Source of the DNA: an uncultured Alphaproteobacteria bacterium
GTDB taxonomy: Bacteria; Pseudomonadota; Alphaproteobacteria; RF32; CAG-239
DNA: 64,000 bases
Assembly (NCBI GenBank): GCA_944391485.1
Contig: CALXTQ010000006.1
Location: 124,001 to 188,000, forward strand
Direction: 5' to 3'
Position 1 is the stretch's first letter. Every line of letters starts with the position of its first letter. The notes beneath the pieces were generated by a model. The model was not told the DNA's origin and did not search any database. It saw nothing but the letters and a program-made list of their open reading frames with translations. This document shows, piece after piece, positions 61,766 to 64,000 of the stretch. A program made the position numbers and the translations under genes.

Positions 61766-62710
61766 TTAAAGAAGACAATCGGAAGCGTTCGGACCGCTGC
61801 ATATTATTTTGTGGTCAAGACGGTCTTCCGCAAGACCGGCCGGGTCTTCATGAATAATGATTTGGGCGCCGGGGTAGACGCGCAGCAGGGACGCTTCGAC
61901 GGCATCGGTATATTCATGGGCCTGGTACAGACTCAGGTCTCCGTCCAGTTCCAGATGAAATTCGAACATAAAAATACCGCCCAGATCGCGGGTGCGCAGA
62001 TCATGAATGCCTTTGGCAAAATCATGGGACAATACGATTTTCTTTATGTTCAGTCGGATTTCTTCGCCGAGTTCTTTGTCTGTCAGCAGAGCCAGGGCAT
62101 CGCGCGCCAGCTTGTAGGCGTTGTATATGAGATATGACGATACGGTAAACGCGGTGAGCGTGTCGAACCAGCTGATATGGAACAGCTTGACGACTATCAG
62201 CGTGAGGATGATCGAAATATTGGTAACGACATCAACCGTATAATGAGCGCTGTCGGCAGCAATTGCCTGAGAGCGGGTCTTTTGGGCTACGTATTTTTGA
62301 AAGACGATCAGCGCAAGCGTGGCGATGAGAGACACGGACATAATCAGAATGCCGGCGCCGGTTTGTTCGATGGTTACGGGTTTAAGCATACGGCTGAAGC
62401 CGTCATACATGACAAAAATGCCCGATCCGGCGACAAACGCCGATTGGATCAGCGCGCTGACGGCTTCGACTTTTCCATGTCCGTAGCGGTGGTTGGAATC
62501 GGCTGGTTTGGAGGAAATCTTGACGGCGATGAAAGTGATGGAGGAAGCAAAAATATCGGCCAGACTGTCTATCATGGAAGACAGAACTGCCAGAGATCCG
62601 GTATACAATGCTCCAAAAGTCTTGAGAAGACTCAGGCTTATTGCCAAAGCGACGCTGGCGATTGTCGCCGCCCGTTTTAGTCTGTTCTTTTCATCAGTGT
62701 TTGAATTCAT
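61766..62710 (-). CDS. Cation diffusion facilitator family transporter
   Basis: CDF/FieF-type efflux protein of 314 residues with six membrane helices and a C-terminal cytoplasmic ferredoxin-like domain. The metal sites are in SMIDSLADIFASSI (helix 2) and AIAADSAHYTVDVVTNISI (helix 5); HRYGHGKVEAVSALIQS precedes helix 4. Metals could be Zn, Fe, Co or Mn; the D-x3-D / H-x3-D pair favours zinc or iron. Its start overlaps the fusion gene's end by 17 bases, so it is in the same transcript. Confidence 0.93.
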   Translation of the reverse strand: MNSNTDEKNRLKRAATIASVALAISLSLLKTFGALYTGSLAVLSSMIDSLADIFASSITFIAVKISSKPADSNHRYGHGKVEAVSALIQSAFVAGSGIFVMYDGFSRMLKPVTIEQTGAGILIMSVSLIATLALIVFQKYVAQKTRSQAIAADSAHYTVDVVTNISIILTLIVVKLFHISWFDTLTAFTVSSYLIYNAYKLARDALALLTDKELGEEIRLNIKKIVLSHDFAKGIHDLRTRDLGGIFMFEFHLELDGDLSLYQAHEYTDAVEASLLRVYPGAQIIIHEDPAGLAEDRLDHKIICSGPNASDCLL

Positions 62711-64000
62711 CTGCTATTTTCTCCACAACCGACGGGGTAATTTCGTAGAATTTACCTTCTACGCTTTCCTTGAATAATTGCAAATGTTTTCCGGGGTTTT
62801 TCCCGCTGATTTGGTAAGAGACGTAGTCTTTGCCGGCCGCGGTGCTGAAAATAAGCTTTGCGCGGCTGCCGCCTTCAATGTCCAGATCCAGCACAAACAG
62901 ACGTTTGGCAGATTGCGGAGCGGAAACGGGAGCAGACAGGGAGGTGTTCAACAGAGTCTTAGCCAGTTCGGCGAGCCTGTCCGCGTCAGTTATGCCGTTT
63001 GCGGCAGCCAATCGGCCGAAACGCAGATTCCACAGCGTGCTGTATGTCCAGTCGCGCCAGTCGGCCGAAAGGTCTATGAATTCCGCGGCGACCAGCCATA
63101 CCTGAAACTGGTTGTCAAATTTGATATAAGCGGCCTGAGCCCCTCTGCCGATATCAACGTTGAATTTTCCAACCTCAAAAGAGGTCAGGCTGCGCCGGTT
63201 TTGGTCTTTCAGTTCTATGCGGATATTCGGGGAACCGGGAACTTCTATCGGGTTCAGTCCAAAGCGTCCCAAATGTTCGGCCCGGGCGGATTTTTTCTCG
63301 TAATAAACGGCTTCCAGCAGCGCGCTCAGAAAACTGCGAATCCGTTCCTGGTATACGGGGAAGTCTTCGTATCTCTTGAGTTTCCATAACTCGTCGCTTT
63401 TGTAAAAAGTCAGGGACGCGTCATGGCTGCGCAGAGTTATTTCCTCAACATCGTTGATATGATTCCGCAAAGACGGGAAGGCCGGTTTGTTTTCGTATTC
63501 GGCAATGCTGCTGCGGTCGGAAAGTACGGCCGCTACAAGGCCAGCTGCCAAAATTGCCAGGCAGGAAGCCGCCAGAATCCAGAAGCGGCGGTTGAGTGCC
63601 AGCGGCTGGGTTGTCTGCGGGCTGTTTCTGCGGCGCCATAAGATGTTTGTTGCCAGTATGAGAATCAGAAGCAGCGGTATGGCGTAAATATTGAGAAACT
63701 TGATGGTCGTGTCTATCCGGTTTATTTTGCGGTTCATGTCGCCGCGGATTTTGCCGAGATCAGCGCGCAGAGCCTCCAGACGCGTGCGGATGCCCGCAAT
63801 GACTGCCAGTTCGTCGGCCGTAAAATTGCTGCGCCCCTCAAAGTCTTTTTTGCTCCAGATTTCCTGAAGTTCCTTTTTTGTCCGCTCAATCTTATCAAAA
63901 ATTTCCTGCTCTTTTATTTTGAACTCGAGCTGATTTTGGCGGCGCAGCTTTTCAATGTTTTCAAACCGGCGGGTTTGCGCCGATTTTCCGCGGAGCTCGA
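62694..64000 (-). CDS. GldG-like ABC auxiliary protein fused to DUF4340 domain (partial, 5' end outside window)
   Basis: The frame is open from position 63998 with no stop and ends at 62694, so at least 434 residues are seen and the N-terminus lies outside. The first about 87 residues (before the internal ATG at 63737) are a long charged coiled coil with LRADLGKIRGDMNRKINRID, followed by a membrane helix (LLLILILATNILW): the C-terminal end of GldG-like ABC-2 auxiliary proteins. A second helix (RFWILAASCLAILAAGLVAAVL) and a DUF4340 domain (NDVEEITLRSHDASLTFYKSDELWKLKRYEDFPV) follow in the same frame. GldG and DUF4340 proteins are normally adjacent separate genes of an ABC exporter; here they look fused. 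The exporter's substrate is unknown. Confidence 0.8.
   Translation of the reverse strand, partial: ELRGKSAQTRRFENIEKLRRQNQLEFKIKEQEIFDKIERTKKELQEIWSKKDFEGRSNFTADELAVIAGIRTRLEALRADLGKIRGDMNRKINRIDTTIKFLNIYAIPLLLILILATNILWRRRNSPQTTQPLALNRRFWILAASCLAILAAGLVAAVLSDRSSIAEYENKPAFPSLRNHINDVEEITLRSHDASLTFYKSDELWKLKRYEDFPVYQERIRSFLSALLEAVYYEKKSARAEHLGRFGLNPIEVPGSPNIRIELKDQNRRSLTSFEVGKFNVDIGRGAQAAYIKFDNQFQVWLVAAEFIDLSADWRDWTYSTLWNLRFGRLAAANGITDADRLAELAKTLLNTSLSAPVSAPQSAKRLFVLDLDIEGGSRAKLIFSTAAGKDYVSYQISGKNPGKHLQLFKESVEGKFYEITPSVVEKIADEFKH

Follow-up and report, generated by a model that had tools for sequence, protein, structure and literature searches.

A predicted GldF-GldG-DUF4340 fusion protein encoded beside a FieF/YiiP-type pump gene in a family of uncultured Alphaproteobacteria

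The window, meaning the whole 64,000-nucleotide stretch of DNA analyzed here, corresponds to C6:124001-188000 of a draft genome of 21 contigs and 1.68 Mb that is 99.7% complete. On its minus strand, one frame holds 434 open codons between the window edge (63998) and a stop codon at 62694-62696. Past the edge, the frame stays free of stops as far as an ATG, giving a protein of 1150 residues encoded at C6:186694-190146 (which would be 62694-66146 in window numbering). A preliminary description had read a GldG-like part and DUF4340 in one stop-free frame, and the 1150-residue frame, with its domains above the Pfam cut-offs, bears this out. That description took a start with a preceding stop upstream of 63998 as evidence against a fusion; none is present, as the frame continues to the ATG. 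The N-terminus, permease and ATPase that it expected beyond position 64000 were found, the permease in the same frame and the ATPase as a gene upstream. The fusion reaches further than described: GldG and DUF4340 are joined, but not to each other alone, as an ABC-2 permease is also fused at the N-terminus, outside the window. The features within the window are as follows.

61766..62710, minus strand: gene for a predicted FieF/YiiP-type cation diffusion facilitator (CDF) of 314 amino acids; as called, it shares its first 17 nt with the end of the fused gene
62694..64000, minus strand: open frame, the in-window part of the fused GldF-GldG-DUF4340 gene (codons 717-1150 and the stop)
63645..63962, minus strand: coiled coil of the GldG part, residues 729-834 (long helices in the AlphaFold2 model)
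63642..63698, minus strand: transmembrane helix 8, C-terminal anchor of the GldG part, residues 817-835 (hydropathy, alignment)
63585..63641, minus strand: mostly basic fusion loop between GldG and DUF4340, residues 836-854, predicted cytoplasmic (hydropathy, AlphaFold2, pN/pS)
63528..63584, minus strand: transmembrane helix 9, N-terminal anchor of the DUF4340 part, residues 855-873 (hydropathy, alignment)
62697..63518, minus strand: DUF4340 part, predicted periplasmic, residues 877-1150 (PF14238 at 921-1039; AlphaFold2)

Four Pfam domains were matched in the fused protein: ABC2_membrane_4 at residues 10-170 (30.7 bits versus a gathering score of 27), DUF7088 at 288-386 (65.1 versus 27.8), ABC_transp_aux at 424-705 (110 versus 34.7), and DUF4340 (PF14238) at 921-1039 (42.2 versus 25). 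The predicted product is thus one protein that combines a GldF/NosY-like ABC permease, a GldG-like auxiliary part and DUF4340, in the order permease, GldG-like part, coiled coil, membrane helix, short loop, second helix, DUF4340. Upstream lies a gene for a GldA-like ATPase of 240 residues, which overlaps the start of the fused gene by 4 nt. The gap between these two genes was -14 to +27 nt in all 38 sequences of our main alignment, which holds 37 of the 40 fused loci of the host family (two duplicates and one cut locus were omitted) and one further fused locus, L100.

A family-mean hydropathy scan gave ten membrane peaks, and at the DUF4340 junction helices 817-835 and 855-873 are linked, in all 38 aligned sequences, by a loop that is short and mostly basic. 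Both junctions, that between the permease (F) and GldG (G) and that between GldG and DUF4340 (D), are predicted to be short, mostly basic, cytoplasmic loops between membrane helices. The topology of the separate proteins would therefore be kept in the fusion, with F ending inside, G starting and ending inside, and D starting inside. No methionine was common to 8 or more of the 38 sequences at residues 230-289 or 780-879; in the absence of a widely shared methionine near either junction, internal restarts are unlikely.

The AlphaFold2 model of the fused protein had a mean pLDDT of 82.6 and a pTM of 0.70. In this model, residues 2-241 matched 7o12_E, a NosDFY permease chain that we take to be NosY (Z 23.2, rmsd 2.9, 237 residues aligned). 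Residues ~424-717 matched the oligosaccharyltransferase subunits 8b6l_N (Z 19.2) and 6s7o_G (Z 19.1), both presumably OST48/Wbp1 chains, and the N-terminal (GIFT) domain of IFT52 (5fms_A; Z 18.0, rmsd 3.2, 214 aligned). The DUF4340 part modeled alone reached a pLDDT of 94.4 and a pTM of 0.89 and had no clear fold match in the PDB (best Foldseek E 0.072; best VIA Z 6.4 over 89 residues), so that any mechanics proposed for it are a guess. A search for PDB sequence relatives of the fused protein returned none at E values up to 1. GH42 enzymes topped the Foldseek whole-chain list at E ~1e-3 and were not trusted, their TM to the query being only 0.12-0.14.

The long frame is present in 31 of the 33 host-family genomes; the two without it are 59% (G020) and 93% (G024) complete. 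A survey of 153 genomes of the host order gave at least 107 places with frames of 949 amino acids or longer among those listed, a count that excludes shorter frames cut by contig ends, such as that of 566 residues in G063. PF14238 was matched in 142 of the 153 genomes, and PF14238 counts are lower bounds, since two fused genes, in G033 and in G172, escaped this search. Near full-length matches (44-57% identity in the best segment) were also found in nine named MAG contigs from uncultured Alphaproteobacteria or Pseudomonadota, two of which have deer rumen in their titles. Across six sequence pairs, pN/pS was low in the permease, GldG and DUF4340 parts, with whole-gene values from 0.029/0.358 to 0.170/0.723, and the fused gene is under purifying selection. 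In the loop between GldG and DUF4340 the sequence varied freely and the frame was retained, and the F-G loop had no non-synonymous change in three of the six pairs, although these three share the same three close relatives and are not independent. It could be argued that an assembly or reading-frame artifact conceals stops, because the source of the window is a draft assembly of 21 contigs and, in some relatives, long frames without stops are misleading. However, the long frame occurs in more than 100 genomes (of the host family, of the sister family and G196, from another order) and in the nine MAG contigs, and pN/pS is low; the chance of such an artifact is vanishingly small, and recurrence already refutes it. 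The same recurrence excludes a sequencing error that masks a stop, which the preliminary description had seen as a way for the fusion to fail.

Beyond the host family, the one sampled genome of the sister family (G033) carries a fused gene at L162:6282-9383 (+), which encodes a protein of 1033 residues with a shortened DUF4340. Pfam did not call DUF4340 in this product; a home-made profile matched positions 7-183. The full domain is thus not always needed, and its second half may be dispensable in the sister-family protein. The sole sampled genome of another order, G196, also carries the fused gene and is rated 6% contaminated. Stop-free full-length matches, which are expected to rank first among the class and phylum matches listed, came from five host-family genomes and G196 among those listed for 385 class genomes, and from the window's own genome only among those listed for 398 phylum genomes.

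To place these genes we used two trees, of 60 and 47 rows, with SH-aLRT support from a quick search without bootstrap. Duplicates, near-copies, L102, and contig-cut or incomplete loci (L046, L079, L091, L114) were dropped from both, and the long branches L084, L086, L088 and L092 were also left out of the 47-row tree. In the 47-row tree, the 17 fused rows formed one clade with an SH-aLRT of 100. An independent second fusion in G196 was rejected, as the trees put G196 sister to the fused clade of the family (99 in the 60-row tree); one origin, or transfer, is more likely than convergence for this gene, and binning contamination is possible at the 6% rating. Given this single clade, one fusion event is the likeliest history: a collinear operon would have lost two stop codons, and the fused gene would then have spread by descent or transfer. 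Such a loss would be easy in some relatives, where only in-frame stops separate the parts: in several unfused genomes, G263, G472 and G408 among them, a match runs in a single frame through all three genes and meets no more than two or three in-frame stops. F and G are joined without DUF4340 in several lineages (eight loci: L084, L088, L092, L120, L121, L124, L165 and L166), and the unusual step is the addition of DUF4340. Outside the family, 20 DUF4340 frames longer than 500 residues were listed; of the 19 examined (all except that of G354), every one but G196:C104 proved to be a run-on that spans separate genes, mostly in GC-rich DNA. The short frame G196:C81 was examined with the long ones.

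The preliminary description held that GldG and DUF4340 are neighboring but separate genes elsewhere, and the unfused loci agree: all four parts occur in the order ATPase-GldF-GldG-DUF4340, with DUF4340 separate, in 52 of the 59 that we read. The other seven are incomplete, with three cut by contig ends (L079, L091, L114), two where no adjacent ATPase was found (L092, L124), and two where DUF4340 was not detected (L121, L125). The fused system is not the only one in its genomes. By Pfam, an unfused set is also present in 17 of the 33 host-family genomes, and the idea that the window's genome holds the fused system alone proved wrong, as its contig C13 carries an unfused set that has diverged (L164:2788-8517, minus strand). 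Pfam called no DUF4340 in this set, and a PAS/HisKA/HATPase kinase gene follows it after 8 nt. Of 17 further unfused loci examined in the family, 14 have a homologous kinase; the exceptions are L082 (short flank), L084 and L088. Those unfused copies from these genomes that were placed in the trees form a separate clade. The partners thus tend to differ, a FieF-type gene for one paralogue and a kinase for the other, which suggests that the two have different jobs. Unfused DUF4340 proteins commonly carry FDG and GW motifs in their C-terminal part; by eye, neither is seen in the 13 fused versions compared from the family, although the fused DUF4340 of G196 retains FDG (alignment A2).

The gene that overlaps the end of the fused gene in the window is predicted to encode a FieF/YiiP-type metal efflux pump. 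Its product matched the Pfam models Cation_efflux (141.8 bits versus 26.6) and ZT_dimer (63.9 versus 26.7) and aligned with 2qfi_A over residues 9-293 (E 5e-66); its DxxxD and HxxxD sites, D48-D52 and H156-D160, align with those of FieF and are presumably the metal ligands. It is the sole Cation_efflux match in the window's genome. A FieF-type gene lies downstream of the fused gene in all 41 fused loci read, a number that includes two contigs counted twice (L034/L057 and L035/L054); as called, it overlaps the fused gene in 40 of these and starts 8 nt downstream in L100. The sister family and the other order have this neighbor too. Across the 107 listed long-frame places it follows the fused gene at 106 (on the same contig and strand, less than 700 bp beyond the DUF4340 match), with G171, at a contig end, as the exception. 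When the link was tested from the other side, with loci picked by their CDF matches in 20 genomes (19 of them outside the 107), the end of DUF4340 lay directly upstream in 20 of 20, as part of a whole fused gene in 15 and of one cut by a contig end in 5.

FieF-type genes were found in 143 of the 153 genomes of the host order. Two genomes go against the rule, G144 (100% complete) and G104, which have a DUF4340 match and no FieF-type match at 1e-60. Among the 11 genomes without a PF14238 match, four have a strong FieF-type match: in G172 it adjoins a whole fused gene, in G164 it adjoins a DUF4340 tail at a contig end, and in G110 and G131 it lies at a contig start. No FieF-type gene was found beside any of the 59 unfused loci, of which about 20 have short flanks where a gene farther away could be missed; of the 57 in which the DUF4340 end was seen, 37 have a 3' flank of at least 1000 bases and 56 one of at least 400. 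L164-L166 also lack such a gene.

We consider it probable that the locus encodes an inner-membrane machine of the GldAF-GldG/DUF4340 type with all but its ATPase in one chain. Two fused chains would form a complex with two separate GldA-like ATPases, and the fusion would fix the ratio of permease, GldG and DUF4340 at 1:1:1. ATP-driven motion of the NosY-like permease might then be passed to the two periplasmic modules, which would act on an envelope substrate. Given the gene cluster shared with the FieF-type pump, with its adjacency and overlap, the work of the machine is probably tied to periplasmic divalent-metal balance, or at least to a condition that calls for both. That two genes are adjacent does not prove that the pump and the ABC machine have a common target, and metal balance is best regarded as the most useful hypothesis to test. 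The Rosetta-stone signal proposed in the preliminary description, that fusion points to a physical link, is supported in that the parts are neighbors elsewhere and share one frame here, which argues for contact rather than demonstrating it.

Three other readings bear on this proposal. The machine might be an ordinary envelope exporter or flippase for a lipid, glycan or lipoprotein, with the CDF a passenger of the operon through translational coupling or shared regulation. GldFG-type systems elsewhere, which presumably do the same basic job, lack a CDF neighbor (0 of 59 unfused loci), the GIFT-type fold is common to an oligosaccharyltransferase subunit, and the invariant columns of the fused family, read by eye, hold no cysteine and only one histidine. 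These points give the passenger reading a real chance, although one below even, because the CDF at 106 of 107 places, and also in the sister family and the other order, with an overlap with the fused gene that recurs in 40 of 41 loci, is more than loose synteny. An upstream neighbor, presumably rRNA-methyltransferase-like, clusters in 25 of 42 loci (a lower bound owing to short upstream flanks). It is less likely, and we think doubtful, that the fusion is neutral, with stops lost in small genomes, the three parts still independent and nothing implied about contact. The few in-frame stops that part the genes in several unfused relatives and the eight F-G-only fusions in several lineages would fit such drift, but DUF4340 was fused only once in the sampled tree and yet retained throughout the clade, and the F-G loop was free of non-synonymous changes in the three non-independent pairs.

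Least expected of the three is a joint metal-handling machine of the envelope, made up of the ATPase, the fused protein and the separate FieF-type pump, in which the pump would deliver a divalent metal to the periplasm and the ATP-driven, NosY-like GIFT-DUF4340 arms would use or load it. This improbable reading is drawn by analogy with NosDFY and copper; if it were true, the whole GldG/DUF4340 family would be metal- or cofactor-insertion machines, not exporters. Compared with these alternatives, we favor the single-chain machine with a probable tie to metal balance.

Here, three adjacent genes have become one, and the merger ties together the parts of a membrane machine that is poorly understood. 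GldG/DUF4340 ABC systems are widespread: of the genomes sampled, 131 of 337 in the class and 76 of 348 in the phylum gave a PF14238 match. DUF4340 is scarcely mentioned in the literature that we searched. That literature, from which subscription papers were largely absent, contained no description of a GldF-GldG-DUF4340 fusion and no match for GldG together with 'cation diffusion facilitator'. A passage of one paper calls a DUF4340 protein essential in Verrucomicrobium spinosum (PMC12283558), and another names PA4040 of P. aeruginosa as a DUF4340 protein (PMC8088628). A natural single-chain version, which would fix the subunit ratio, is a good target for structural work, and the tight genetic link to a metal pump offers a testable first hint of the machine's job.

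Among known systems, the GldA-GldF-GldG set of Flavobacterium has the ATPase, the ABC-2 permease and the GldG auxiliary protein in common with the present locus, which differs in the added DUF4340 and in carrying everything except the ATPase in one chain. The closest NCBIfam models were GldA for the ATPase (1.9e-75) and GldF (1.4e-38) and GldG (4.4e-18) for the fused protein, all far below their equivalog cut-offs (254.1/402.6, 133.3/288.5 and 65.2/389.85 bits, respectively). The T9SS motor protein GldL, the only gliding marker searched for, reached at best 12.9 bits in the window's genome against a cut-off of 68.3. The 'gliding-motility-like' of the preliminary description thus stands as a family name, and with GldL as the marker no tie to gliding was found. 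In F. johnsoniae, GldF and GldG are reported, in the text available from PMC9127263, to be needed for membrane localization of GldA, a dependence that fits one complex.

The unfused operons, known from Alphaproteobacteria and from relatives elsewhere in the phylum, have the same four parts in the same order, but as separate genes or with F and G fused, and unlike the fused locus they have no FieF gene found alongside. NosDFY(L), which serves in the assembly of nitrous oxide reductase, has a similar permease fold (Z 21-23 over 234-240 residues) and a possible link to metal; its periplasmic partner is NosD, and Pfam found no NosD domain in the fused protein. Compared with NosDFY, the GIFT-type and DUF4340 parts are covalently attached to the permease. 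IFT52 and OST48/Wbp1, whose fold is common with residues ~424-717 (Z 17-19), are eukaryotic and are not known to have an attached ABC permease. The IFT52 domain was named GIFT after GldG and intraflagellar transport, according to a passage in PMC10191852. Finally, the downstream gene is a relative of FieF/YiiP, which appears here as the near-constant neighbor of a fused exporter.
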